A stretch of DNA of 64,000 nt from contig CP141137.1 in the NCBI GenBank assembly GCA_035236585.1, positions 10,928,327 through 10,992,326 of the forward strand, in the 5' to 3' direction. Origin of the DNA: Warburgia ugandensis. Its lineage: Eukaryota; Streptophyta; Magnoliopsida; Canellales; Canellaceae. The notes below the pieces were generated by a model. That model did no database searches. It had not been told where the DNA came from and was given only the letters and a program-made list of their open reading frames with translations. The position numbers and the translations under genes are program-made. Below are positions 39,160 through 63,493 of the stretch, in pieces; the stretch's first letter is position 1; the number at the start of each line of letters is the position of its first letter.

Positions 39160-39909
39160 ATGAATCGGTTGCTCTTATCATATTCTTTTGTCTTCCTCTT
39201 GATCCTCCTCTTCTTGGCTTCAACTTCTCTTTCCCAAGACGATGATCTTCGGGATGTGGACTGCCGTCCTAGTAGTCACACCTGTGGAAACATCACACTA
39301 GACAATAGTTAGGTGATCGCCCAAGGAAATGCGTTCATCCAGGTTGCCGAATCACCCGTGAAGACAACTTTTTCCAGATAGAGATTGGGCCGAAGATGGT
39401 ATATCGGGTCCGTGAAATCGATTATAGGAACCGAGTCTTAGCTGTGTTTGACAGGTATCTCAAGTCTGATGGGTGCCCTACAGTGAGGAATACCACCACC
39501 CTTAATTTTGATTACTTTGGACCCACTGATCACGATTGGAAAGCAGTTCTATACCATAACTGCTCCACCCCGATTGAAAAGCCGGATCTCCATCCAATTC
39601 CCTGCTTAACTACGGCCGGAAATTATGCTTACTATACCATACCAAGTGATCCCACCCACATTGATTCATTTGACAGTTGCATAACTCGGGAGGTTGCAGT
39701 TTACGGAGAAGGTTTGCATCGCCTTGAGCGAAATGAGACGAGTCTGGGCAATGTTTTGAGTGACGGTTTTAGTGTGACATGGACGGTGGGGCGTGAGATA
39801 TGTAGTCCTTGTTTTGATTATGGTGGTTACTGTCTTCCTCGCAACGATTCTAACCAATCTCCCACCTGTTTCTGCAGTCACGAACAGCATGCATTCTCCG
39901 TCTGTGATG
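39160..39909 (+). pseudogene. LRK10L-like receptor ectodomain, first exon (copy A1)
   Basis: The likely start is the second ATG (39160), giving a clear signal peptide (MNRLLLSYSFVFLLILLFLA) and mature start near SLSQDDD. GUB_WAK_bind follows: CRPSSHTCGNITLDN, then a stop and frame change at about 39308-39315 where the family has ISYPFW. It resumes with PRKCVHPGC, EDNFFQIEIGPK and YRVREIDYRNRVLAVFDRY. The WAK_assoc part ends with CSPCFDYGGYCLP and TCFCSHEQHAFSVCDG. A textbook donor GGTAAGT (39909/39910) follows at the position where family members splice to later exons. Apart from the one lesion the reading frame is open for about 200 codons, so decay is recent. No membrane or kinase exon was found downstream. 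Could be expressed as a short secreted form only if the lesion is an assembly error. Confidence 0.85.
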
Positions 39910-41676
39910 GTAAGTTGTGAGATGTCTCTATATGGCCTTTGTTTCTTTAAATTTGCTTACAAGATTGGGAGCAATCTTCAATTTATTTAAGACGTTCTCG
40001 TTGACTTGCTACAAATTCTCCAGCAAGAGATGACTAAAAAAGGAAGGTTGAAATTCAGAACAAAGAGTCTCCCACATGAAACAAGGCAGGATTGATTGCA
40101 TTTCCCCTAAGTTTTAATATGAAATCCTTCGTTAACTAGTCATCTTAGTTGTGGAGCTGCAAAAACCGAGTACAAATTGGGCTGAGGACCTTTGTTAGGA
40201 AGACAGGGCTAATTAGAAAGTCATAATTTGTTGAGTTTGGTTTGGACATCTTCAGTTATTCCTCTGCAATCTAACTTAGAGCTGGAAGAGAATTCGGATC
40301 ACTTATTGATGATCTTTTGGACTCCTGCCTTCTGGATAAAGGGCCTTGTATCGTGCAGAGGTTGCATGTACACTCTTTCATTTTGGCAAGGACACCCTTC
40401 TCTTTATTTTATACTCGTTCAATGATTACAACCGTTTAATTGATATGCCTTTTTTCTGATTGGACTGCACACAGAATACTTCTCTGTCGGACGGTCTGTG
40501 CCTCTGGTTTGTGGAAGCGTTGAGTCATTGGGTTTTAATTTTTTGTCCTTTTAACTGTTCCTTTACGAGAAACGCAGTCGCACTTGTTTTCAGTATTAAC
40601 CTATCTACCCCTTTGGATGGTATGATCTATTCATCTTGTTTGGCTTGCTTGTAAGAATTGGCTAAAACTCAAAATTCATGATCGCCGGCTGATTTAAGCT
40701 ATGCTGTCTTAGGTTTTGAAATTATGATCATCGGATTTTCTTCTTCTGAATTAACCAGTAGCTAGAAGCTTCCTATAGGCATCAGTTTCTGCAGGTTGCC
40801 TAAATATGGGAGGCCCAACAAGATTTTCTCTTCCTTAAATTTGTAGGTCCCAAACAGGTTCTTAGAATTCTCCGTCGAGTTAATTCAGGATTTATTTCTC
40901 TTTCAGTTTGCCCAGGAGATACGTCGTGTTGATCATCCAAAAGTGGCTCCATTCGCTTCCCTTTTCCTACATAATTAATATTTTTTGTGCCGAAAAAAGC
41001 AGTTATTATATAAAACACCTGTATTCGGGGGCTGACAGTCGAGCAAGCATATGAGAGTATATCTAATTATCTGTCATGTCGGTCGCTACATGAACGATCC
41101 AGATCATATTTAATGTCAGTCTGACTTCAGGCCCAAGCACCACATTATTGAAACCTGATCTTATAAATCTAAGGCTGAGATCGTTTAGATCGTCTTATTA
41201 TTGCAAAATTAATAAACATGGACTAGTCAAACCCAAGGAAGGGGCTTGGAAAATGGGAAAACAGTGGCGTCACCATCAATCCATGGAAGAATATTCAAAG
41301 ATAAGAAAGCGGAATGTCTTCCCCTCCTAATCTTCTATCTTTCTCTCCATCCAATCACCTTCAAGTCTTTCTGACGAAGACCGCAACCTCACTTAATTCC
41401 TCAACTACCACAAATACCCTGTTGGATGTTCCATCTTCAAGTCCCATCCCCTCCCAAAGTCAAGGGCATATCTGTCACACTCTCCCGCGTCAATTTGCTG
41501 CCACTGCTTCTCTTCTCAAACCAAGCCAATCAGGACCGAAGAAAAAGCAGTGCATTTATCATTCAACTTACCACCGAAAAAATGTGCCATGAACGTCTCT
41601 CTGTAGTCTCCAATTCTATTTTCTTTGGCATGTTTTGATCTCTTTCTAACCTCTTTCTTCTTCTCTGTCTCCCCAA
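39910..41676. other. intergenic block, unit A of a tandem duplication
   Basis: Intron-like and promoter-like sequence between the two LRK10L-like genes. It is repeated in the same order at 43,288-44,770 plus 57,974-58,238. No kinase motif occurs on either strand. Near 41,220-41,320 a conserved block (CCCAAGGAAGGGGCTTGG, then GCGTCACCAT) lies about 370-450 bp before the next gene and is also kept in unit B, so it may be a promoter element. Confidence 0.75.
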
Positions 41677-44770: not shown

Positions 44771-45000
44771 TAGGAGTGGCAATTCGGGTTGGCGGGTCGT
44801 TTTTGTGGCGGCACGAACACGACACGAATAGTGTTATGGGTCGACACGAACACGACACGCTTAATAGTTGTGTCAAAAACCTGTGACTCGTACACGACCC
44901 GGTTCTTAAAAAAATGACACAACACGACCTGTGTAACACGATTAATTGACTGAGTCGTGTTGGATACACGACACGAAATGACACAACACGACATATTAAA
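44771..45000. repeat. left terminal and subterminal region of the hAT element
   Basis: The 12-bp terminal repeat TAGGAGTGGCAA is followed by GGCGGGTCG and then direct and inverted CACGAACACGACACG-like motifs up to about 45000. The 156- and 116-codon minus-strand frames over this stretch are products of the repeats. The motif density suggests transposase binding. Confidence 0.8.
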
Positions 45001-45110
45001 AAAACTGCTCTCCCAACTCCCAACCAAGTCCCAACTCCCAAGTGAATAGAAGTTATAGAACGGCTGCCAAGGCCCAAACTCCAAAACAACCACAATAAAA
45101 TAAACTAACA

Positions 45111-45350
45111 TATAGGACGGCTATTTCACAGTCGTTCTATAAAACCCTAACATATAGGACGGTTGTAACATAACCGTCCTATATATCATTGGTTTTATAG
45201 GACGGTTGTGAAATAACCGTCCTATATGTTACAGATTTTATAGAACGGTTGTGAAATAACCGTCCTATATGTTATTTTATAGTACGGTTATTTCATAACC
45301 GTCCTATATATTAGGTTTTATAGAATGGTTGTGAAATAACTGTCCTATAT
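45111..45350. repeat. palindromic-site array 1 (6 units)
   Basis: Six units of about 31 bp, period about 42 bp. Each is an imperfect palindrome: a TATAGGACGGTT half-site, an 8-9 base loop (mostly GTGAAATA), and the inverted half-site AACCGTCCTATA. Substitutions in individual half-sites include GGCT, GTAC and AATG. It lies between the left hAT end and the 3' end of the hAT transposase gene. Confidence 0.95.
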
Positions 45351-45917
45351 TTTACTTTTTATAATTTTATTCCACTCCACCGTTGTGACTGATCTTATGA
45401 TTCTGACTGAACTGTATCTTTGAATCTTTATCACCTGAAGCAATGACAATGACGTTCTGGAGCAGAATTCAATAGCATGGGTCTTTCAGTTATGAAGAAC
45501 TAAACTTTCAACCCAAGTTACCAACCCCCACATAAATTGTTAGGAGGGAATTCATTTCTCCAACTCCTTTCATGCTCATCGTCACTGGTCATTGCTATAT
45601 CCACTGAATCACTGGTGACTGATCCACCACACGACAAGTACATAGACAACCAAATTACCAATAATGTTCCTGTAATATTTTATTATTTTATTTAGAAACA
45701 ACACAGTTCTTTATAGTTTAGTATTACACCACTCACTGACTCACTTCACAAGTTCACAATTCACATGATATGTAAAAAAAAGAGACTGAAATGAATCAAA
45801 TAATGACAATAGTAGTAAATAAATATGGATTAAGTAGCACATGATGGAAATATACTTCCATCAATGTATTAAGTATCAAACACAACAAATTAAAATAAGT
45901 CATGAAAATTATACAAA
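45351..45917. other. 3' flank of the hAT transposase gene
   Basis: Non-coding sequence between array 1 and the transposase stop codon. It would contain the 3' UTR of the minus-strand gene. Nothing else recognised. Confidence 0.4.
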
Positions 45918-48438
45918 TTAATCAAAATAAATTGATCCAGAGTCTTCAGTTGGTTGAAGTGATCCTGCAGTGCTACTTATGCTTACAATGTCCTCAGCAA
46001 GCTCATCCATGGCAACTGTAATGGTAGAGTCTACAATCATATAGAATAAACAAGCATTAGTTATTACTAAGCTCATATAAAATATAATGTAAATATAGAA
46101 TTATAAACTATTACCTTTCAATCCATATAGCCAATCTCTCACACAAATCAATGCTTGCATGGTATCTGGCTTTAAAGTAGATCTATATTGGTCAAGAACC
46201 CGACCACCAACACTAAAAGCAGACTCCGATGCAATTGTAAATATAGGAATGCTCAAGACATCACGAGTCATGGCAGCAAGTTCAGGATACCTAAAATCAA
46301 CATTTGAATCAAATATAAATGTAAATAAGATTATAGAAATAGTGTTTACATGAGATTATTAGTCAAACAACCTGTATTGATTGCCTTTCCAGAATGCAAG
46401 AATGTCTAGCTTTGACTCTTGCAATCTTGGTTCATCCAAATAAAGCTCCAATTGTGATTTTTGCATAGCCAAAGTACCTCCTTCACCTTCAAATGAATCA
46501 AATTCCTAATGCAAATGCAATTATATTATTCAACGTACTATAAGACAATTCATACTTCATAGCAAATTTTAATATACTAAGTAGTAAGCGACATATAATG
46601 AAAGATACAATTATAAATAAAATCACCTTCATGACATCTAAAACCTCTTGACTATATGACATGTTCTGTCTATCATCAGCACCTGCACCTCTATCCACTG
46701 GGGTAGATGAGGAGAAAGGAATAGGATAAATCTTAACCTTATATTTATTGAAGAGAGAGAATAACTTTTCCCTAACTTGAGCAAACTCCAAGCAGCCACT
46801 GCCAAACAATTTCTTGTATGAGAATTCCACAAAGGAGAGCTTATACCGAGGATCCAACACACATGCAATTGCCAAAATGGTGCTGAATTCAGACCAGTAC
46901 TTTGAAAACTTGGCAAACATTTGGGTGGACATACGCTTCATATAGTCATCATCACTTCTCATGTATTGTGTTAAACTCAAATAAATTACAAATGCTGCAT
47001 GAAAGTAGAGATTTGCAGTGAGATACTTGGATCCAGAGAACATGCAGGTGGCATCATAAAAAACTGCCAAAAACTTTAAAATTTTTGTAGCCTTTTCCCA
47101 TTCAATGAAAGAAGGACAATGCTTATAATTTGAGTCACTTAGTTCTAAGTGACAAAATGCACGTTGGTAACAAAGAGCACTTTCAAGCATCAAATACATT
47201 GAATTCCATCTTGTAGGACAATCTTGTCTTAAGCCCTTTTTTGTCTCAATTGACATGTGATTCACACACTCTAAAAAAATTTGTTTTCTACTTTGTGATG
47301 CTTTAACATACTTGATACTCTCTCTAATTTTTTGAATGGCATCATCAATTTCTTTCAAACCATCTTGCACAATCAAATTCAAAACATGACAACAACAACG
47401 TAGATGAAGGAACTCTCCACCACAAACAAGAGTGTTCCTGATGTTTAATTGATACCTTAATAACTCAACAGAAGAATCATTAGAAGAAGCATTGTCTAAA
47501 GTGATTAAAAAAATCTTTTTCTCAATCCCCCATTCTACCAATAATGAGTATAACTTTTCTGCTAATAATATTCCATTATGTAGAGGTGGTAGGAAACAAA
47601 AATTTAATATCCTCTTTTGTAAGACCCACTGACTATCTAGAAAATGTGCTATGAGACTTATATAACCATCAGTAATACAAGAAGTCTACAAATCTGATGT
47701 CAAACTTATCCTACTAGGTGCAAATTCTAACATCTCTCTTATCTTTCCTTTTTCTCTTTTATACATTCTCAGAACATCTGCTTTTACTGTATTTCTACTA
47801 ATCAAGTGCAAATCTGCACGCAAATATTTCAATAGAGTTCTAATTCCATCATACTCAACAAATTGGAAAGGCAAATCATGCATAACAACTACAGCTACTA
47901 CTAACTCACAATAAACTTCAAGATCAAACTTATTATCTGAAGCTGCACTTAGTGACACTGACATACTCCCCTGACTTTGAGATAAAAGCAACTGGCCTAT
48001 ATCACGAGAAGAGCTCCGTTGACAAGTCTTTATATGACGTTTTAAGTTACCAGTACCAAATTTGCTATCGCAAATGTATATTGCAGAACACTTCTTGCAT
48101 TTACACGTTTGCCTTCCATCTTCTGATAAAGGAAGGTGTTCAAAAAAATTCCAAATTGGAGACATTAATTTCCTATGCTTTATACCTCTATTGGATTTTG
48201 AAACTAACTCCACGTTCTCCAAATTAGCAAACTCATCATCATCGTTGTTGTGGTGTAGCATATTCAAGTTATCAGAAACATCAGTGCTCCCAACTTCAAC
48301 TTGTGCCTATATTGCAAAATGCAAATGACAAAAAAAAATTAGTTCACACTGACAGTAAACTAAACACTTCAGACTTCACCAACAATTACTAATAAGTAAT
48401 AAGGGAAGGGAGTGAGTGAGTGAGTGAGACACTGAGAC

Positions 48439-48472
<34 letters not shown>

Positions 48473-48729
48473 CTCGAGAGTGAGGAAATTGAGAGGAATG
48501 AAAAGAGTCAGACTCATAATTTCATAGAGAAATAACAAAAAACAAACACATGACATACCTGTGGTGCTGTAGTAGGGGTGCTGCTGCTCAGCGTGTTAGA
48601 ACTTAGAAGGGTTGATGTTTGAACTTGAAGAAGAAATCTGGATTCTGGTCCTCTGGAGTCTGGAAAGGGAAATCTGAAACAGATGTAAAATTGTAAATTA
48701 TAAAAGCAGCTGCAAGCCTTCAACTTCAA
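45918..48729 (-). CDS. hAT-family transposase (BED finger, hAT dimerisation), one in-frame stop
   Basis: Would cut and rejoin the element's ends in the nucleus. Five exons can be traced with GT/AG borders and matching phase: 48729-48559 (start uncertain), 48306-46627, 46505-46372, 46290-46115 and 46030-45918, about 755 codons. Domains in order: BED zinc finger (WNFFEHLPLSEDG, CKCKKC, GNLKRHIKTC), RNase H-like core with KIFLITLDNASSND, RCCCHVLNLIVQDGL and DCPTRWNSMYLMLESAL, then DPRYKLSFVEF, and the C-terminal dimerisation domain ASESAFSVGGRVLDQYRS ... LICVRDWL. The stop TAG at 47686-47688 stands where relatives have Trp in SLTSDLWTSC. This is the only lesion found, so it is very young. RICESLEEPER/DAYSLEEPER-like, but the flanking ends argue for a mobile gene, not a domesticated one. 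Confidence 0.88.
48411..48477. repeat. (GAGT)n and (GAGAGTT)n short repeats
   Basis: Four GTGA/GAGT units, then four GAGAGTT units, lie within the first intron of the hAT transposase gene. Slippage repeats. Confidence 0.9.
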
Positions 48730-48740
48730 CCTTGGGTTGG

Positions 48741-49022
48741 TAACGTTGGTTATGTATTAACGGTCCTATATTTATAAAATATAGTACGGTCATGTATTAA
48801 CCGTCCTATATTTTAAAAATATAGAACAGTTATGTGCTAACCGTCCTATATTTAGATAATATAGAACGGTTACTTAGTAACCGTCCTATTTTTTGTAAGC
48901 TTTAACATATAGGACGGTTATACATTAACTGTTCTATATTGTCCAAATATAGAATGGTTATACACTAACCGTCCTATTTTTACATAATAATATAGGACAG
49001 TTACGGACTAACCGTCCTATTT
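48741..49022. repeat. palindromic-site array 2 (7 units)
   Basis: Seven units of the same inverted half-site pair (TATAGRACGGTT / AACCGTCCTATA), with loops such as ATGTATT, ACTTAGT and ATACACT, and linkers unlike those of array 1. It begins only about 12 bp from the possible transposase start, so it overlaps where the promoter should be. Confidence 0.95.
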
Positions 49023-50817
49023 TACACATGGTTTATTCCTTCATTACCAATCTGTGAGTGTGAGTGTGACTGTGAAGTCTGTGATGTGCCAGATTTCCAC
49101 TTTTCAAGTGACCAGTCTGCCTGACAGGGACTGATAGCCTTCTTTCCTCCAATTCCAAACTGGCAAGTGGCAAGTGTGGCAAGTGGAGTTAATGAAAGTT
49201 GAAACTTACACTTCAATCATTTGTCAAATATTTTGATTTTTGAGTCATTGTCCTTAATGTTACTTGTTAGATAACTTAGATGTCATGAATCATGATAGAT
49301 GATCCGAGGTGGGGCCCCCCCTTGTAGACTTGTAGTGGCGGGAAAACAAAATGAAAGTTGAAAACTGAAAAGAACATAAAGGTTTAACTTTAACTAATTA
49401 ATAATTATCTAGGTATACAGTATAGAGTATACTAACTACTAAGTCAATCTAGAGTCTAATCTAACTGTCTAAGGCAATTGTTTAGTCTTTTTGTATAATT
49501 GTATTGTATCATGTAAGTTAAGTAAGGCCAAATCCAATTATCCAATTGAATTTGAAGTCTTATCCCTAAACCTAAAGAACCCTAGCCTAGCCTGGCTGGC
49601 TGGTTTAGGTTGTTTGCTATAACTATAAGCCTATAACTATAAGTTATAAGTAACTGTATAACCTAATTTCTTATCAACCATTTTCAGTTTAGCTACACAT
49701 TGTCACTTGTCAGTTGTTACAACTTACAAGTTACACTTAGTAGATAAGTTAACCAAGTTTTGTAAGTTGTACAAGTAAAATTGAAGTGAGAGACTAACTA
49801 ACTGTCATATATTGTTGTATAAAATTATAAATGCTAATGAATAATGATTTTCTTATGTTAATTTTACATGTCTCACCAACTAATTGATCTAATATATCTC
49901 TTTTCAATCAAATTCATGAATATCATGTATCCAACTCATATAACTCAATATTTGTTTCTCATTTCTAACTCCTAATTGATGATAATAGATTAGGAATAAC
50001 TCATTCATGATTCATCCATGATCCATTGATCCATCATTCATGTAGACATTTGTAGAGTAAAATTTAGTAACTCCTTTAGTAATATCATTCAACATTTGTG
50101 TTAATTCAACACACAACTCCTATTCTCTGTTCACATTCTTACCTCACCTAATGAGTTAATTACAATGTTACATAACTAATAATTATTCCCTTGGGACCCT
50201 TCCTAGTTCCTATACTATACTCATTATCCTCTAATGAGATAATTACTCAACTCTTTCTATACTCATTCTCAAGCTACTGAGTTAATTACATAACTGTTTC
50301 TATTCTAGTTCAGTTCAGTCATTCTTACCTAATGAGTTAATTACATGACTCTTTCTCTTTCTTTACTTATTATCATTTATCAATGTTATCATCAACATTC
50401 AACAACTTTTGAATTCAGTATGAGTTACTTACATAACTTTGCTTTTTTAAGCTGATCCTCAAGTGAGATCATCAGATGAGTTAAATACATTATATACATA
50501 ATTAACACTTACTTTACTCATCCTCCCCTGACCTCAACCTCAACAACTATGTTGAATTGAATATGACAGTATGAGTTACTTACATAACTTTGTTTTTAAG
50601 CTGATAGATACTCAACCCAACTAAGAAGTCTGAGCCTGAGATGAACATATATGCTCTGTCTTTTTAAGCTCATCCTTAACTTAAGGAAATTAAAATGAGT
50701 TAATTACATAACTCTTTCTTCACTCCATACTTAATAACTAGTTTTATTTAAGCACATCCTCAACTAAGATTAATTAAATACATAACTCTTATAGCTTATA
50801 CAACTCCTATATTTCAA
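49023..50817. repeat. gene-free spacer with decayed repeats
   Basis: About 1.8 kb between the two halves of the element. 50,140-50,790 is a run of loose repeats containing ATGAGTTAATTACATAACTC and CTTTCT phrases at 60-110 bp spacing. Short back-to-back phrases (CTATAACTATAAGTTATAAG near 49620) also occur. No hAT or CACTA end could be found here that would split the element into two nested ones. Confidence 0.6.
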
Positions 50818-51310
50818 TATATAGATGGTTATAAACAAACCATCCTATATTTAAATATATTATAGGACGGTTATTTAAAAACCGTCCTATATTTAAATAT
50901 ATTATAGAACGGTTATTTTGAAATCGTCCTATATTTAATATATTATAGAACGGTTATTTGAAAACCGTCCTATATTTGATTATATTATAGAACAGTTATT
51001 TTAAAACCGTCCTATATTTAAGTATATTATAGAACGGTTATTTGAAAACCGTCCTATATTTAATATATGATAGAACGGTTATTTGAAAACTGTCCTATAT
51101 TTGATTATATTATAGAACAGTTATTTTAAAACCGTCCTATATTTAAATATATTATAGAACGGTTATTTGAAAACCGTCCTATATTTAAGTATAATTATAG
51201 AACGGTTATTGAAAAACCATCTTATATTTAAGTATATTATAGAACGGTTATTGAATAACCGTCCTATATCAGTATATTATATAGAACGGTTATTTTAAAA
51301 CCGTCCTATA
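50818..51310. repeat. palindromic-site array 3 (12 units)
   Basis: The longest and most regular array: twelve units of about 31 bp with a period of 41-46 bp. Typical units read TATAGAACGGTT, loop ATTTGAAA, AACCGTCCTATA, with a linker ATTTAAGTATAT-like found only in this array. Variant half-sites (AACAGTT, AACTGTCC, CATCTTAT) are scattered. It lies upstream of the Ptta/En/Spm-type gene. Confidence 0.97.
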
Positions 51311-52514
51311 TGGTTCTATACATATAATATATCGTTTTCACTTTTCACTTTTCACCTTGGTCATTCTCAGCCCTAATTTCAATCTTCTAAGTTCCAACCC
51401 AACGATCCAATCCAACCTATATTGAGAAGGTGAAAACGACCATTCCTCTTTGATCTTTCACATATCTAAGCAAAGAAAGGTATGTATTTATGATTGTTTG
51501 CATCTTTAATGTAATTTCGTATACAGTTCTCAGATTTCGATTTATGTTGTCTTTCATTTGGGTCTAGAAATGGGGTTTGTTGGGAAAAAGATGGATGAGC
51601 AAAAAAACAGGAGCTGGAAGTGGAATGGGATTGTGGGAGATATGTATGTTCCTCTGACGGAAAAACCAAACATATAAATTATAAAGGTTCTGAGTCTTCT
51701 GACTTTACCCATAGTGCATTAGTACTGAATCAGTGAATCCTGATAGATAGGTTCTTAGAGAACTGCATCTACTGAAATAGTCTCCAGCTGAAATGTAGAG
51801 CAGACTGAGCAGTAGAAGAAACAGGACACAAGATTGAGGGAGAGACATTAAACTAGTTCTTTCTTTTACAAAATGGAAAAAAAAACATTACCTTTATCTA
51901 ATTTATCACAAACTAGCTAGAGCTTATATCCCAATTTCTTCTTTTCCTTAAGGGAGCCCTAGAAAAAAGAACCAAATCAAGAAAAATTTCTCAAAAACTA
52001 AAATTAACATATCTCATATCTGCATCAAACAATGTCAGATTTTCAACATTTTTGATGTGTTGGAACTATTGAAACAAGAGGAATGATTAAGTGATAGTTG
52101 ACGAAAATAAAAAATAAAGGATGAAGGAACATAACAGATTTTTTAAATTATTATTAGACTGGAATGAATATTTTGAGATAGGAAACTTAATGAAATGGCC
52201 AAATCAAGTTACAAATAATGAATGTTATACAAAAACAAAATATCACATATTTTTTCCACTCTGCATACTGGAATGGCATACTTCTGGGGCTATGGCACTA
52301 TGCCAACATCACAAAAAATGGGAACATGCATAATTGCTTGTTTGAAGAGATAGAGGGAGCAACAATATGACCTTGTAGGAGGCTTCCAATATAGTGTCCA
52401 TTGTCCAATGAAAAATTTGTGATGGTTTTCAAGGGTGCTACTGATTAGTATCCCTGTATAATTGTATTCCTCTTTTCTTGCCTAACTGTAGTCATTTTTA
52501 TTTGTGAAGCAAAC
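51311..52514. other. 5' flank of the Ptta/En/Spm-type gene
   Basis: About 1.2 kb upstream of the first recognised exon. A possible leader exon could lie here (a TCTAAGCAAAGAAAGGTATG-like donor near 51,465), but no coding exon is recognisable. A TATA element could not be assigned with confidence. Confidence 0.4.
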
Positions 52515-55500
52515 ATGGAGCAAGTAGAAGAGGTAGGAGAGGTACAAGTAGAACAATTACAACACACAGAAGCAGAACAATCAAGGCTATCAAGCACATG
52601 TCCATCAGTAACACCACCGGTGGTCAGTGTCAAGAGAAAGGTCAGGGGGAGGGGGCCAACACAAATGGAACATATAAATAAGAGAACCTCAATTGGAATA
52701 AAAGAAACGATACAATTCAACACTAAAGGCCAACCGATTGGTGGTGCTGCACATGCCTATGCTAGCTTCATATGTTGCACTGTTAGAAGACTTGTGCCAG
52801 TATCAGTGACTGATTAGAGACATGTATCGCCACAAGTCAAAGATTCAATATGGGAAATGGTCAAGGTATGTAAATTCTTCATACATATAACATAATATGC
52901 CCTTTATATTTATATGTTTTGTTTTTGTTTGCATATGAATCATGATAAGATACACACAGTTGCTACAATACTGACTAGTTAGTCACTTTAAAATGCTTCT
53001 TCTTTTGTTTTGTAGTCTGCCTTTGACGTATCTGATGAGTGCAAGAAGCAAGCCTTACTAGGAGCTGGTGAAGCTTGGAGGAAATGGAAGAGTGAGCTTG
53101 CAAGGAAGTACATACTTCCAAATTCCCATGATCCTTCTACGCTTCACATGGTCCCTCAGTTGTATTCCTGCTTCATTGACTAGGAAGCATGGAATCAATT
53201 TGTACAGTATAGGCTATCTCCTGATTTTGAGGTAATCACAACTTGAATTAACCAAGCTAAATTTTGAGTCTTGTAATCATTATAATTGATTGCATTTTGA
53301 ATCTTTGATCACATTACTTTGATGTCCAGGCAAAGCGTATAAAAGGACAAAAGGCTCGTGCACAGAACCATACGCCGCACCACCTTTCAAAGGTTGGCTA
53401 TGCACGATTAGAGGCAGATGTAGTAAGTATATCATGTCACATTCCATTTGTCTAATCATAGTAGATTTTTTTTTATTAACTCTGACTTAGTGTCTCTTAT
53501 AATCTTATTACAGCAAAAGAAGGCTGGGACAACGGATCCCATCGACTGTGCTATTCTATGGAAAATTGCACATTCGAAAGGGCGTAACTCCCACACCTTT
53601 GCCAACGAGACAACTACAACAATTGCTTCAAGAATTGTAAGTGGTTTAAGACTTTAAGTTTTATACTTTTACTTTATTTGCATACTGCCTAGTTAAATAT
53701 TTTTATACTTTTATACCCTTGCATAGTATATTATTTAAATATTACATGTATAATAGTGATTTTATCATGTGATGATCTTTATGTGTGCAGGAAGAGTTGA
53801 CCCAAGAACAAGAAGAAAGTGCAACTACAAGGACTCTTAGCAACACTGCTACAAAGGGGGACATCCTGTATAGGGCAATGGGCAACAAGAATGAGCACCT
53901 TGACTGGATAAGGGGCCAAGGTCGGGGTGTTGTTCCTTCCAAATTCTTCTCCAAACAAAAGGCTCCTACGCTACAAGAATTGGAAGAATGGAAGAAGCAA
54001 ACAGTTGTGGAGATATATAGCATGGTCAAAGATTAACTGTTGAAGGAACTCCAAGGTGGCGGAAGAACCTCATGTGAGGATGTTGGCGGCCCTCAAGCTG
54101 AAGCTCAACCTCAAGTTCAACCAGCAAGAAATAATAATAGCTGCACTCCTACTCCTAGTCCTCCATCAGATGAAGAGGTGGCAGAACAAGTACTCTCAAT
54201 CAGTGAGGTATGTATATTCACTTGTTTAGTTTTACAATGTTACTTATTTACTAACCTTTTTAGTTTACACTTTACATTACATCACTAATTATAATATATA
54301 TGTCATTTCTCAAATGCAGGTGGGTTAGTGCATGTTGCAGCTACATACATTTGAGAACCATGTGGCTGTGGCAACATTGTACGAGGTTCGGCCCATGACT
54401 TCTGCCACCTTGCATGGTAAGTTGATGCCTCCACACACTAAGCGTGTGTGCATCACTACTGCCACTCAACCAGATGCTCCCCTTCCATTTCCAGTCGAAG
54501 GGGATGATGTTGAAACTGTTGGGGATACAATTGGATATCATGTGTGTTGGCCAGAGAAACACATAAAACCAATGATATCCAATTCCAAGGTACATATATA
54601 CTAAATATAGTCATGGCTTCATTTTCTCCTACCTTTTTTTAAGTCCTCCTAAACTGTTCATTGATTAATATTGTCTGCAACATGTCGGACAGTTGGATCA
54701 CCAAAAGTAGCACAAGGGGCAATTGAAGCAAACCTTGCTGCCGGCAAATTCTGACATAGTGGCAAGTGTAGCCACATCCCAGCCTTCTCAGGTAGTACTA
54801 GTTCTATATTTTTGCATAGTCACTACTCACAAGTCACAAGTCAGTAGTACTAGTTCTGTAGTTCAAAACACTTGTTAGGTGCTCACTAGTCACTACTCAC
54901 AAGTCACAAGTTAGTAGTCACAATGTTATTATTGTTATATTATAAAATATTCTAATTTTACCTCACTGGGTTTCTTCTTTTATATCTACTAGTATATCAG
55001 TATATGTTGTATATATTCATTACTAATTTCTAAAATGTTAGATGATTACATCTACAGTATAGGGATCAAGTGGAGGTTCCACCTAACACACCTCCATTCC
55101 TAAGAGTACTATACAAATTGGCCAATGAAGGCAACACAAATACAATGAACCCTGTAAGGATAGAGGTAGGTGTGCTTTCAAATGATGTGGTTGAGGTTCC
55201 ACTCTTCAAGGAAGACCTCATAGCCATATGTAATATGGATCAATTGGAGTACATGCACATCATAGTCTATATAGGGTACGTCGTGTAACTGCTCTATTAG
55301 AGTTAAGACTTACCAATCAATGTAACATTACTTAATACTTGCTTTTTTAATAAAACTTAATAATTATTTGACATTAACCCAAATTCCAAATGCAGGTATT
55401 TGCATGATAGCTTGCAAAGACTAGAGGTCAAGGACATTTACAAGTTCCTTGACCCTTCTCTTGTCTTTCAATTGGACCATTTGCCTAAGGACAAACAAAG

Positions 55501-56172
55501 TGAAGATATCATTCCTGGTCTCATGACTTATGCGAAGGGGCAAGCATTACAGATTCCCTACAATAGCGGGTACGTTGTAACATAGGTTGCTTAATTATGC
55601 CATTTTAATTTCACAATTCATAGTTTCATACACATGAATACTACATCAGTTAAGATTAGAGAAAATTCAATTGAATTATTATTTTTATAGGTCCCATTGG
55701 ATGTTGCTAGCTTTGGATGTGCATGGTAGCCATGCAATTTTTTTTTATTCATGTGGAGCACACATTCGAGAACATCTTATGGAAATTATAAACAAGTAAG
55801 TCTTTATTATTTCTTTTATTATAATATAACTACTCACCTGACAACTATAATAATATTCATAATCTAATGTTTTTCAATTATATGTGGTAGAGCATGGTAT
55901 AAATGGGCTGAGAGGGAAGGCATTCACCACCCACCAAAACTCAACTGGAAGAAGGCCAAGGTATAGTTTACTAATTACTGCTCTTTAGACTCTTTCATAT
56001 AATTTTAAACCTGAACTTATTGGAAATTATATTTTGAAACTTTTCTATTGTCTTTGGTGGCATTGTTCTGCTGTGCCCTAAACAAAAATTAGATTGGGAG
56101 TGTGGATATTATGTTCTTAGATACATGAGAACCCTCATTCGCAATGGAGTTACAGTCTCACAATTGAGAAAG
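52515..56172 (+). pseudogene. Ptta/En/Spm-type (Transposase_24) + DUF8039 + Ulp1/C48 protease-like gene
   Basis: Twelve exons with consistent phase: 52515-52865, 53016-53231, 53330-53422, 53514-53636, 53791-54207, 54320-54589, 54693-54791, 55058-55275, 55396-55569, 55691-55795, 55891-55960 and about 56074-56172. Transposase_24 (exons 1-5): KRKVRGRGPTQMEHI, GEAWRKWKSELARKYI, YRLSPDFE and NKNEHLDWIRGQGRG. A DUF8039-like part (exon 6) has DAPLPFP ... VGDTIGYHVCWPEKHI. The Ulp1-like part has SHWMLLALD (catalytic His) and CPKQKLDWECGYYVLRYM (oxyanion Gln, catalytic Cys); the usual LDSL aspartate is not evident. Stops at 52815 (TAG), 53181 (TAG), 54034 (TAA), 54326 (TAG) and one in exon 7; the exon 12 acceptor AG is lost. 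Related proteins bind element DNA (TNPA in En/Spm) or resemble deSUMOylases. Fusion in one gene is inferred from phase continuity. Confidence 0.8.
54797..54930. repeat. short direct repeats in intron 7
   Basis: Two copies of a segment containing GTCACTACTCACAAGTCACA followed by AGTAGT occur about 75 bp apart within the intron. A local duplication. Confidence 0.75.
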
Positions 56173-57390
56173 GTAACACTTAAACTTACTGACCAATGTT
56201 GCACTTTTGATTTGTATATTTCCTGACTTAATCCAAGATTACATGACAGATTATATTATGAATTTTAATTTGTAGTTCAGTGATGTAAAATTGTAAATGA
56301 ATGTATATTATCATTCATGTATATACATTTTACTCAAATATAATACAAAGATCAGTTCATTTCAATGGATGTGTTCTATTTTTCTTTTGATTAAAGTACA
56401 CTGTATCAATGTATGTGCTTTCTTTGTTTCAAACTTTCAAATTTCAATGATGTGATTGTGAAGTTGGTGTTTTGATCAGCAGATGGGTTAATCATCAATT
56501 TTCAATGATGGCTTAGATCAGCAGATGGGTTGTATTGTATCATGTATGTACATACAGTCTACAGATACAGTATGGGTGGTTGATATCATATCATGTATTG
56601 TATCATGTATTGGAGAGGGATTCATATATGGAATGGAGGTTGATGATTGAAATTACTAATATATACTGAAGTTGTAGATTTGATTCATATGAATATGATA
56701 CCAAAAAACTTTCAAATTTCAATGATGTGATTGTGAAGTTGGTGTTGTGAATGGAGACCTGATGGACATCCTGCCCAAGTGCCCATACAGGCAATTTCAT
56801 CCATTTGCTGAGGAATGAGGATAAAATTAAAAATTCCTAAGTTCAGAATGATTGTCTGCATTGGTGCCTGCCTGGGCCTATTGACAATTGGAATGATATA
56901 GTCATGGAGATGGTGCTAAGTGATTGATATGTTGGGCAATTGTGATGATTGGAGCCCATGATTTTGAGCTACCAAGTTTCTGACAATCAGAACACAATTG
57001 TTTGCATGAACAGAAAGAGGGATGAGGAAGTTCCACTAGTTGTAATTATATCATGTTTGCAAGCTTTCACTTATCTGTTGCCAATCAAATGTGTTTTATC
57101 AGAAGCTTATAAACTGGAATGTGAAGTTGCTTCGGCTTACATTTCAGGAAATCCTACTTCATTCAGATCTTAAATCACAGATTTCTGGATTATATTTTGT
57201 GAATTCCTGTTGATAGTTTGTCACTCTCATGTCTTTGCTTTCTTTTCATATTCTCTAAGATGCACCCGAACGAGAACCTAGAAGAAGCTGTTCCTCTGAG
57301 AATATCTTTATAGTATATGTGTGAGAATAACTCACTAACTCTTAACAGTGGCTCCATAAGAACCCTCTATTCTCCAATATAACTTAGTAA
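56173..57390. repeat. 3' flank with a 40-bp direct repeat
   Basis: Gene-free sequence after the last Ulp1-like exon. A nearly identical 40-bp segment (ACTTTCAAATTTCAATGATG, then TGATTGTGAAGTTGGTGTT) occurs near 56,428 and 56,708; CAGCAGATGGGTT is also repeated (56,480/56,520). The family's last exon after RTLIRNGV is not recognised. Confidence 0.7.
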
Positions 57391-57730
57391 TTTAGGACGG
57401 TTAGTGAATAGCCATCCTATATAAATAGTAATATAGGATGGTTTGTGAATAGCCGTCCTATATAACTAGTAATATAGGACGGTTTGTGAATAGCCGTCCT
57501 ATATATAACTAGTAATATAGGACGGTTTGTTAATAGCCGTCCTATATATATAATTAGTAATATAGGATGGTTTGTGAATAGTCGTCCTATATATGACTAG
57601 TAATATAGGACGGTTTGTGAATAGCCGTCCTATATATAAGTTATAACTACTAATATAGGACGGTTTGTGAGTAACCGTCCTATATAATATAACTAGTAAT
57701 ATAGGACGGTTACTCATGAACCGTCCTATA
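57391..57730. repeat. palindromic-site array 4 (8 units)
   Basis: Eight units, period 41-53 bp, with half-sites TATAGGACGGTT and AGCCGTCCTATA, a loop TGTGAATA and a linker containing ACTAGTAA found only here. The last unit reverts to AACCGTCC. The minus-strand frame over it (RPILLV repeats) is a translation artefact. It is about 240 bp from the right hAT end. Confidence 0.96.
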
Positions 57731-57775
57731 TTTTCAAATTGTGTCACGTGTCACAGTCAAAGTGTCAAGGTAATA

Positions 57776-57973
57776 AGGTCATGAGTGGGTCGCGTGTCAA
57801 ATAGGTCGACACGACAGGTCAAATTCATTGACTCAAACACGACACGATTTTTGGCGTGTCATTTTCGGGTCACCCGAAAATGACACGAACACGATAAGAC
57901 TCGACCCAAACCCACTAAAATCGTGTCGGGTTCGAGTCGTGTTATCGTGTCGTGTCATATTTTGCCGCCCCTA
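57776..57973. repeat. right subterminal and terminal region of the hAT element
   Basis: CACGACACG/CGTGTCGTG motifs in both orientations up to the terminal repeat TTGCCGCCCCTA. Their kind and distance from the end mirror the left side, supporting one element with these two ends. Confidence 0.82.
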
Positions 57974-57981
57974 GTTTTGGA
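57974..57981. repeat. right 8-bp target site duplication of the hAT element
   Basis: GTTTTGGA follows the right terminal repeat and matches the left ATTTTGGA at seven of eight bases. After it, GATGTTC...CAAGTCC-type sequence continues the duplicated LRK10L-like upstream block (compare 41,424-41,450). Confidence 0.85.
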
Positions 57982-58238
57982 TGTTCTATCTTTCAAGTCC
58001 TCTCTCCTCACACTGTCGAGGGCATATTCGTCATACTTTCCAGCGTCAATTTGGTACCACTACTCTTCTCAAGCCAAGCGAATCAGGACCGAAGAAAAAG
58101 CAATGCATTTAGCATTCAACTTACCACCAAAAAAATCTGCCATGACCATCTCTGTAGTCTCCACTTCTATTTTCTTCAGCATGTTTGGATCTCTTTCTAG
58201 AGCCTTTCTAACCTCTTTCTTCTTCTCTGACTCCCCAA

Positions 58239-58946
58239 ATGATTCTCCACTGGTTACTGTTCAAAACCTTATTCTTCTTACTACAAACAGCTCGTTCAAT
58301 TGACCCACGGTTTGAGAATTGCAGGCCTACTACTTGTGGAAACCATGACATAAGCTACCCATTTTGGATCGATGACCAGCCAAGTTATTGTGGATATCCA
58401 GGCTTTCATGTCACTTGCAGAAATTAGACTGGCCCTTATCTTGATCTATCCGAAGACAACTCCTACCATATTAGAGAAATCTTTTACCAAAACAATTCAA
58501 TTTCACTCCTTAGCACTGAATCCTCGTCAACTGAAACATGCCCAGTTTCCCTTCATAATCTCAATCTTGATGGAACTTCGATTTCTCTAACTAGAGCCAC
58601 CCAAAATCTCTCCTTATTCTTCAATTGCACTGTGAATCCACCTCCTACATTCCGTCCAATTTCTTCTTGCTCACAAATAATAAGACAAAAAATGCTTATT
58701 TCTCCCTATCCACAATCAAGGAAGCGACGGTGGTGAAGTTTTCCAGAGCCTGTGGGTCTGTTGTTACTGCACCAGTTATGAGTGGAGAGCCTTTTGATTA
58801 TGCACATGTAGAAGATCCTACCATTTTTTTGAGAAGGGGGCTCGTTTTAGGGTGGATTGCACCGAATTGCAGGAAATGTCATGATAGTGGTGGACGGTGT
58901 GGATATAATGAGACATCTGTTTATTTCGTCTGCTTTAGCTCAAACC
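58239..58946 (+). pseudogene. LRK10L-like receptor ectodomain (copy B2), cut by a copia element
   Basis: The duplicate of copy A2: signal peptide MILHWLLFKTLFFLLQTARS, CRPTTCGNHDISYPFW, SYCGYPGFHVTCRN, LSLFFNCTVNPP, and in the final frame RGLVLGWIAPNCRKCHDSGG and RCGYNETSVYFVCFSSN. Lesions differ from A2: a TAG at about 58425 where A2 has CAG (Gln), and one base fewer near 58670, which shifts the frame. It keeps Ser at the A2 stop and the 19 bp lost in A2, so the two copies decayed independently. The exon stops at 58946, where an LTR begins inside the WAK_assoc part. Its far upstream region lies on the other side of the hAT element. Confidence 0.87.
58942..58946. repeat. left 5-bp target site of the copia element
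   Basis: AAACC precedes the LTR. In copy A2 the uninterrupted sequence reads CTCAAACCGTCC, so insertion took place after AAACC. The matching right copy lies beyond the window. Confidence 0.6.
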
Positions 58947-59311
58947 TGTTGCAAAACAAGAGGAATAATAGAAGGCAAAATATCAAAATGAAGAACAAAC
59001 CATAAAGTACACGTCCATTAATTGGTAAAAGTCTATAAATAGATATTACAACAAACTAATCTTACCCACTCACTCCACTAACTTCCATAAAACAACCACT
59101 AACTTCCCATAAAACAACTACCACTTTTACCACTAACTTTTATAAAATAACTACTAACTTCTACCACTAACTCCCATAAAACAACCACCACTTTTACCAC
59201 TAACTCTCATAAAGTTGCCACTAACTTTTACCTCTAAAACCTATAAAACTACTATTAACCAACTTTCAAAGCCATTCAAACCACTATCTTTCAGATAAGT
59301 AAATCTTAATA
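58947..59311 (-). repeat. 3' LTR of the copia element
   Basis: Starts TGTTGCAAAACAAG in plus coordinates and ends AATCTTAATA (canonical ending TAACA mutated), 365 bp. 59,085-59,260 is a degenerate tandem repeat of CCACTAACTTCCATAAAACA-like units. The matching inner border at 63650 fixes the LTR edge. Confidence 0.85.
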
Positions 59312-62499: not shown

Positions 62500-63493
62500 T
62501 CTACTTCCTTATTTTCTGCAAAATTCGATCTCTCCTTTTTCTTTGTCATTAGGCAATTTAGTATAACATTCGGAACAATAGTGACCAAATTTATGACATT
62601 TGAAGCACTCTACCTTAGATTTGTCAAATTGTTGATCTCGTCCTTTACCTTTGCCTTGAAATTGGTCATCATTAGCTTTGAAAATTTGATATTGCCTACT
62701 TCCATCTCTGTTGCATCGACCTCCTCTTCCTTTACCTCTCCTCTACCCCTTCCTCTAAAATTTGAGAATTGAGTAAAGGTAGAAGCCTTTAGAGCTTACT
62801 CATCTATAGTTGAACTTTGATTCATCTTTTGTTCATTGACCAATAAGGAGTTCTGGAGTTCATCAAGTGAGAGTTCATTTATATCTTTAGATTCTTCGAT
62901 TGAGTAAACAACATAATCATACTTTGATGCTAAAGTGAGAGTTCATCTATATCTTTAGATTCTTCAATTGAGCAAACAACATAATCATACTTTGATGCTA
63001 AGGAACGTAGTATCTTTTCAACAATAGCAACATCTTCTATTTTATCAACATGGAATCACATTTTGTTGGATATCCCCATGGTCCTTGCATAATAATTGGC
63101 AATAGACTAACCATCTTTCATCTGTAGAGTCTCAAAATCCCTCCTCAAAGCTTGAAGCTGTGCACGCTTCACCCTTGACGAGCCTTAATATATTTTTTTC
63201 ATTTAATCCCAAATTTGCTTGGAAGTTTCTTTGCTGAGAATTGTTTCTAAGATAGATTGGTCAATTGCTTGAAAAAGATAATTCTTTGCCTTCAAATCCT
63301 TTAGCTTTAAAGCTTCTAACTCTGCTTTTTGTGCATCTGTTAAAACTATATCAGCCGCTAGCTCTGCTACACCACCATCAACAACCTGCCAATATTCTTT
63401 GGACCTTAAGAAGTTCTCCATTAGGATGCTCCAATGGTCATAGTGACCATCAAAGCAAGGAAAAGTTAGTTGCACAAAGTTTTCTGAAGCCAT
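62500..63493 (-). pseudogene. copia gag
   Basis: The start is probably at 63493 (MASENFVQLTFPCFDGHYDHW), with an in-frame upstream ATG at 63556 less likely. A UBN2-type capsid follows: SILMENFLRSKEYWQVVDGG ... LKDLKAKNYLFQAIDQSI. The CCHC knuckle CFKCHKFGHYCSEC lies near 62600. A 68-bp tandem duplication at 62867-63002 shifts the frame in the middle, and a stop lies near 63185. The primer-binding site is about 145 bp upstream. Confidence 0.88.
62867..63002. repeat. 68-bp tandem duplication in copia gag
   Basis: Two adjacent units starting GTGAGAGTTCAT at 62867 and 62935 run through ATCTTTAGATTCTTC and ACATAATCATACTTTGATGC. The period of 68 is not a multiple of three and therefore shifts the gag frame. 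The units differ at a few positions. Confidence 0.93.

Follow-up and report, generated by a model that had tools for sequence, protein, structure and literature searches.

A two-gene hAT element of Warburgia ugandensis with a Transposase_24-type accessory gene and four arrays of palindromic sites

Introduction

Accessory proteins that bind sites within a transposon and wake or assist it are known from the CACTA (TNPA) and MULE (VANC) superfamilies. Among the plant hAT elements, Ac and Tip100 have a single gene. Here we describe a 13.2-kb hAT element that encodes a protein of the Transposase_24 type beside its own transposase and carries four arrays of one palindromic site. It lies in a stretch of 64,000 nucleotides from Warburgia ugandensis (assembly GCA_035236585.1, contig CP141137.1, positions 10,928,327 to 10,992,326 of the forward strand), hereafter called the window, to which coordinates refer unless a contig is given.

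TNPA binds the subterminal repeats of En/Spm and is required together with TNPD for transposition (PMC2613891), and tnpA is recognised by the Pfam family Transposase_24 (PMC8195511). Spm is activated by TNPA, and this activation correlates with demethylation (PMC10398659). VANC proteins bind short motifs in tandem repeats of the non-coding parts of VANDAL elements (PMC5735166) and induce loss of silent marks (PMC5735166, PMC10398659). Some VANC genes include a Ulp1 domain (PMC13317346), the VANC target arrays gain and lose repeat units (PMC5735166), and the motifs of VANC21 lie in one orientation (PMC5735166, PMC13317346). For the hAT superfamily, the Hatvine families of grapevine have terminal inverted repeats (TIRs) of mostly 8–23 bp and complete lengths of 2.4–5.5 kb, one length being given as 'variable' (PMC2528002).

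Results

The element has hAT ends and two divergent genes

The two-gene layout is real, and the evidence speaks well for a single element, which is a hAT by its ends, its duplications and its transposase and combines these with site arrays and an accessory gene of the CACTA type. It occupies positions 44771–57973, is bounded by the terminal sequences TAGGAGTGGCAA ... GCCGCCCCTA, and runs from the left end through array A, the minus-strand gene for the hAT transposase, array B, a spacer of 1.8 kb, array C, the plus-strand second gene and array D to the right end (Table 1). TIRs of the TAGGG or CAGGG kind are the hAT form, and the short TIRs of this family are of that kind, reading TAGGGGTGGCAA ... 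TTTTGCCGCCCCTA in the full copy on contig C13. The frame of the window ends was fixed by two other full copies, in which perfect 8-bp duplications stand outside TAGGGG...CCTA; in the window an exact 8-mer duplication appears only after a one-base shift of this frame. The original prediction, made from the letters of the window, had named hAT-type ends with an 8-bp target duplication. The ends hold, as does the duplication in the two full copies and in a related gene-less element (L092), where it is perfect; the window itself matches at 7/8 positions. In place of CACTA termini with a 3-bp duplication, hAT termini with 8-bp duplications were found. The outermost 240–300 bp of each end contain a separate repeat, ACACGAC/CGTGTC, distinct from the palindromic sites, and the right end is 88–89% alike in L092 and in a further relative, L091.

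The minus-strand gene contains the Pfam domains hAT-like_RNase-H (E = 1e-26, 93 bits) and Dimer_Tnp_hAT (E = 2e-27, 95 bits), in keeping with the predicted transposase. The BED finger also predicted for it fared unevenly, zf-BED scoring 21.7 bits on the exon frame, above the cut-off of 20.6, and 18.5 bits on the joined model, below it. Likely positions of the catalytic acidic triad were picked by eye in translations of open reading frames (ORFs), and an additional 5′ exon is possible near 48570–48650.

The spliced model of the plus-strand gene scored 40.4 bits for Transposase_24 (cut-off 28.7) and 31.1 bits for Peptidase_C48 (cut-off 20.7), the sole Pfam families detected in it, so that the predicted Ptta/En/Spm-type gene with a Ulp1-like tail is borne out. 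In the window a GT donor follows each exon of the 12-exon model. Exon 1 is uncertain because no acceptor AG immediately precedes the start codon at 52515; the boundary of exon 12 is uncertain by a few bases, and the acceptor ahead of this last modelled exon, lacking in the window, is there in 9/9 other copies read. Across the copies, the donors of exons 1–4 are kept in 28/28, 28/28, 27/28 and 20/20 readable rows and those of exons 5–11 in 10/10, and the acceptors fit YAG in nearly all rows, exon 12 excepted (two bases before the last one scored). The C48 tail could be aligned to SENP5 (E = 6e-5), with the His, Gln and Cys kept in the window; an Asp at the remaining catalytic position was seen in a single copy, L050, among 10, where it may be ancestral or have come back by chance.

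Neither the two gene models nor the 10 ORFs scanned gave a match to Transposase_21, the mark of TNPD. Searches with the second protein were of little weight: none of 8000 scored candidates reached E ≤ 0.001 in a large protein collection that apparently holds no close plant proteins, and a Transposase_24 family search of the own genome, which gave 12 candidates and no match, was uninformative, since control genomes were likewise silent. Near window position 56245 about 98 bp that are present in two other full copies are absent. A deleted relative, L093, hints at a short last exon near the same position, and an exact-string search of the two full copies did not find that exon.

The two genes recur as one unit across the genome

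Copies were sought in the window's own genome (1.12 Gb, 14 contigs). Because the searches score only the roughly 40 best candidates, all copy numbers are lower bounds. Probes from the hAT gene and from the second gene each gave at least 40 matches at ≥95% identity, window included, and the left-end probe (44771–45071) at least 41, of which 40, itself included, were at ≥92%.

Among the 40 hAT matches listed, eight (window included) have a second-gene match 5.9–6.2 kb away in the right orientation by coordinates. Two further copies were fetched whole, and both contain the two genes, all four arrays and perfect 8-bp duplications; since the 8-bp duplications of these copies and of the window differ from one another, the three are separate insertions. 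Twenty more hAT loci were probed at the expected place, and the second gene was present at 18, bringing its presence to 28 of the 30 hAT-gene matches examined, window included. The other two are doubtful cases: where the second gene would lie, L061 has another part of the element and L064 only short pieces of the element. In the reverse direction, 8/40 listed second-gene matches pair by coordinates and 19 of 20 others probed have the hAT gene at the expected place, giving 27 of 28 examined (window included). The opposite pattern, each gene standing alone, had been named in advance as the sign of a nest; it was sought at these 30 and 28 matches, and a partner was missing or not found at two and one of them, respectively. 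Whether full-length relatives carry both genes and all four arrays had been posed as a further check; two of the two fetched end to end do. An old capture that multiplied afterwards as a unit may also have produced this distribution.

One second-gene copy (L089, G000:C7:10597014-10598014) is without any element sequence at the expected hAT place and may be a truncated or rearranged copy or one of a different kind.

Copies of a probably intact source decayed in a methylation-type manner

The window copy is dead, with one in-frame stop in the hAT main exon and five in the second gene. When the majority base was taken at each codon position, no stop remained across 560 codons of the hAT main exon (30 copies) or over 746 codons of the second gene (28 rows, 10 of them for exons 5–12; of the 30 loci given, L061 and L064 yielded no row). 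Because the majority frame of both genes is open across copies, the source element was probably intact, which suggests, without proving, that both genes were needed. Free of both stops and indels are 2/30 hAT exons and 2/10 near-complete second genes (exon 12 mostly unread). Of the changes confined to one copy, 230 are replacing, 79 are silent and 21 make stops within the main exon of the hAT gene, a pattern resembling decay without selection; in the second gene 173 are replacing and 55 silent.

The copies decayed in a methylation-type manner: they differ from the majority by 1.1% (median of 30) where a site is neither CG nor CHG, and by 8.1% at CG/CHG sites. With a substitution rate near 7e-9 per site per year, the burst is perhaps one to two million years old.

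The palindromic sites keep a rigid geometry

The window contains 31 dyads of the form TATAGRACGGTT-N7-AACCGTCCTATA, distributed over the four arrays and counted with the spacer set at 7 bp; with spacers of 0–14 bp and up to one mismatch per arm allowed, 26/26 pairs of the whole window have 7 bp. The 12-base half-site, with at most two mismatches, occurs 73 times in the window against 8.35 expected, a count that 0/100 shuffles reach, and five of the 73 fall outside the element. We counted facing half-sites in 33 sequences (30 hAT loci, two whole copies and the window, three copies being partly counted twice). They stand 19 bases apart from start to start, equivalent to a 7-bp spacer, in 444/447 pairs, with two at 5 and one at 20, while the distance from one dyad to its neighbour varies (20–41). 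The arms are 81–100% conserved by position, one G/A position excepted, and the half-site contains an ACGG core; the commonest spacers are GTGAAAT in array A, ATTTGAA in C and TGTGAAT in D, those of B being mixed. Conserved arms at a constant distance are the look expected of a site to which a dimer would bind.

The prediction of four arrays of one palindromic site, with each gene between two of them, was confirmed in the window and its copies: the hAT gene lies between arrays A and B at 30/30 loci, the edge of array C precedes the second gene in 8/8 (L043–L050, window included), and array D is present in 3/3 full copies, window included. Unit number varies among the 30 copies, from 3 to 6 in A and from 4 to 8 in B. 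The genome contains 3439 exact matches to the dyad and none to a reversed control pattern; several of the first 50 places, all on C1, have other spacers.

Such other spacers were met in related elements. L092 (G000:C1:7659100-7660900) is a complete hAT, about 1.46 kb long, that contains no genes. Its duplication is perfect, its ends resemble those of the window at 80 and 89%, and dyads lie near both of them; 8/8 of its pairs have 7-bp spacers, whose sequences (CATCTGG, CCTTTGG and others) are unlike those of the window family. The same kind of right end with dyads was found in L091, where six of eight pairs stand at 19 and two at 5. A second subfamily is represented by L093–L095 (G000:C1, 4.33, 5.99 and 9.05 Mb), which are 82–83% alike to the window in the spacer region; half-site pairs stand at 19 in 2/2 cases in L093 and 2/3 in L095 (the third at 30), and L094 has no pair. 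L093 is internally deleted: its spacer runs straight into the last two exons modelled for the second gene. The end piece of L093 has at least 40 genome matches at ≥94%, itself included. Dyads are thus shared by several hAT subfamilies, some with genes and some gene-less, in which arms and geometry are mostly kept. In holding their 7-bp geometry, also in a gene-less hAT with similar ends, they behave as a fixed, predicted protein-binding site.

Discussion

The closest systems each share a part of this layout. As in En/Spm, a Transposase_24-type protein accompanies a transposase encoded by another gene, and short motifs are repeated near the two ends (here arrays A and D), in En/Spm as binding sites of TNPA (PMC8195511, PMC2613891). 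The differences are its hAT ends, 8-bp rather than 3-bp duplications and hAT transposase, and its two divergent genes, arrays at both gene starts and Ulp1-like tail. With VANDAL (MULE) and KIU elements it has in common a second protein and tandem, non-coding arrays of short motifs that change in unit number, the KIU kind also having a Ulp1 domain (PMC5735166, PMC13317346). It differs from VANDAL in transposase superfamily and protein family, and here the motifs form dyads; neither a VANC family nor a MULE transposase was among the Pfam families in the two gene models, where Transposase_24, C48 and hAT/BED were found. Palindrome-capable subterminal repeats, two on one side and 12 on the other, occur in the soybean CACTA element Tgmt* (PMC2613891), which has CACTA ends and a CACTA transposase instead. 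The hAT domains, short TIRs and 8-bp duplications are those of the single-gene plant hATs (Ac, Tip100, Hatvine), whereas the 13.2-kb length, second gene and four dyad arrays set the element apart from them, the available passages on Hatvine telling of none of these features in any hAT (PMC2528002). We recognised no description of a hAT with this layout in a partial survey of the literature, mostly without subscription papers.

The model that we favour, at even odds, is a two-gene hAT family in which the dyads are the target of the second protein, in the manner of TNPA in En/Spm or of VANC in VANDAL elements. Both the binder of the dyads and the effect of its binding are matters that we infer. 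According to this model, the hAT transposase would recognise the short inverted ends, probably with the adjoining ACACGAC-type repeats, and would cut and insert the element, giving the 8-bp duplications. The Transposase_24-type protein would bind the dyads as a dimer. At arrays B and C, upstream of the two divergent genes, it could act as a switch that turns both on, or keeps them on, in the face of DNA methylation, the part that TNPA plays in Spm and VANC in VANDAL. At arrays A and D, beside the ends, it might hold or expose the ends for excision.

Several observations weigh against this model. A partner gene was missing or not found at 3/58 places examined. The aligned catalytic Asp of the Ulp1-like tail is Tyr in 8/10 copies, Asp in one and frame-shifted in one; the tail may bind SUMO or a similar protein instead of cutting it. 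CG decay was used to ask whether arrays A and B had been shielded from methylation, and no sparing was seen: in the dyad regions decay is 0.10 and 0.086, respectively, against 0.096 for gene CGs, and 0.066–0.067 in other parts. As the CGs of these arrays decayed as fast as those of the gene, the arrays were not lastingly protected, and protection, if any, ended with silencing. Selection on either protein within the burst gave no clear signal, shared variants and singletons being similar: among variants common to at least three copies, the ratio of replacing to silent is 38:15 in the hAT gene (singletons 230:79) and 22:12 in the second gene (singletons 173:55), with no clear silent excess in either by plain comparison of the counts. 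Comparison with the second subfamily covers two short exons only, with codon differences of two silent and four replacing in one and two silent and three replacing in the other.

The main rival holds that the dyads are subterminal sites bound by the hAT transposase itself, and that the second gene has another role or none. The subterminal motif of the Ac transposase is AAACGG, which the ACGG core of the half-site resembles; dyads lie near both ends of L092, which has no genes; and the transposase has a BED finger, which passes the cut-off on the exon frame and falls below it on the joined model. We nevertheless hold this account to be rather unlikely, if still a serious contender, as arrays B and C stand at gene starts, not ends, and the majority frame of the second gene is open. 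Mildly against it, too, the ACACGAC/CGTGTC repeat in the last 240–300 bp could serve as the transposase site.

A hAT could instead have once swallowed a CACTA-type accessory gene together with its arrays, a cargo that hitchhikes and is of no use to it. Captured sequence is carried by the Hatvine-6 hATs of grapevine (PMC2528002), palindrome-forming subterminal repeats are known at CACTA ends (PMC2613891), and the want of a clear selection signal within the burst would suit a passenger. A mere passenger is a less probable explanation than binding by the transposase, and one we doubt: the 12-exon model is open in the majority frame, the hAT gene is flanked by arrays A and B at all 30 loci compared, and relatives have the dyads too, with other spacers and a largely unchanged geometry. 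Simple nesting, with a CACTA element or some other one inserted into the hAT copy of this locus alone, would explain why one element combines protein families from two classes of transposon. Two full copies elsewhere repeat the order, each with duplications of its own, and partners were found at 28/30 and 27/28 matches examined; nesting is so improbable in view of this that we reject it for this locus.

If the second protein does read the dyads, the strategy of accessory site-binding proteins would have arisen in, or moved by recombination to, a third superfamily. In its broadest form, which we offer tentatively and with less confidence than the model itself, hAT would be the third superfamily with a sequence-specific activator or anti-silencing system of its own, defining two-component hATs: a Transposase_24 protein with a pseudo-protease, SUMO-type tail would bind a rigid dyad at each promoter and each end, the arrays diverging between subfamilies mainly in the spacer, and either convergence or recombination with a CACTA element would have given rise to the system. 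The family offers a natural test of the joint evolution of site arrays and their reader, and it bears on why Ulp1-like tails occur on such proteins more than once.

Feature coordinates and surroundings of the insertion

Table 1. Parts of the two-gene hAT element and its flanking duplications, in window coordinates.
Feature	Position	Strand	Remarks
Left target-site duplication	44763..44770		Matches 57974-57981 at 7/8 bp
Left hAT end	44771..45050	+	TIR TAGGAGTGGCAA; subterminal ACACGAC/GTCGTGT repeats
Array A	45111..45349		6 dyads TATAGRACGGTT-N7-AACCGTCCTATA; lone half-site 45054-45065
hAT transposase gene	46101..48306	-	Main exon 46627-48306 (BED, RNase-H-like); C-terminal dimerisation part within 46101-46355; one in-frame stop
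Array B	48780..49021		6 dyads and a lone half-site at 48759; upstream of hAT gene
Spacer of divergent genes	49022..50860		Parts 82-83% alike in L093-L095
Array C	50861..51310		11 dyads and a half-site at 50838; upstream of second gene
Transposase_24 gene with Ulp1/C48-like tail	52515..56172	+	12 modelled exons; 5 in-frame stops
Array D	57391..57730		8 dyads
Right hAT end	57735..57973	-	CGTGTC-type subterminal repeats; TIR, TAGGGGCGGCAA read from right
Right target-site duplication	57974..57981		

On either side of the element, frames at 39309–39920 and 58212–58736 resemble by eye the extracellular parts of receptor kinases of the LRK10L/WAK type. A few hundred bases lie between the right end of the element and the frame that follows it, so the element may sit in the promoter of that gene. 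Tandem repeats unrelated to the dyads were seen at 59095–59254 (units of 33/67 bp) and at 62865–63001 (68-bp units).

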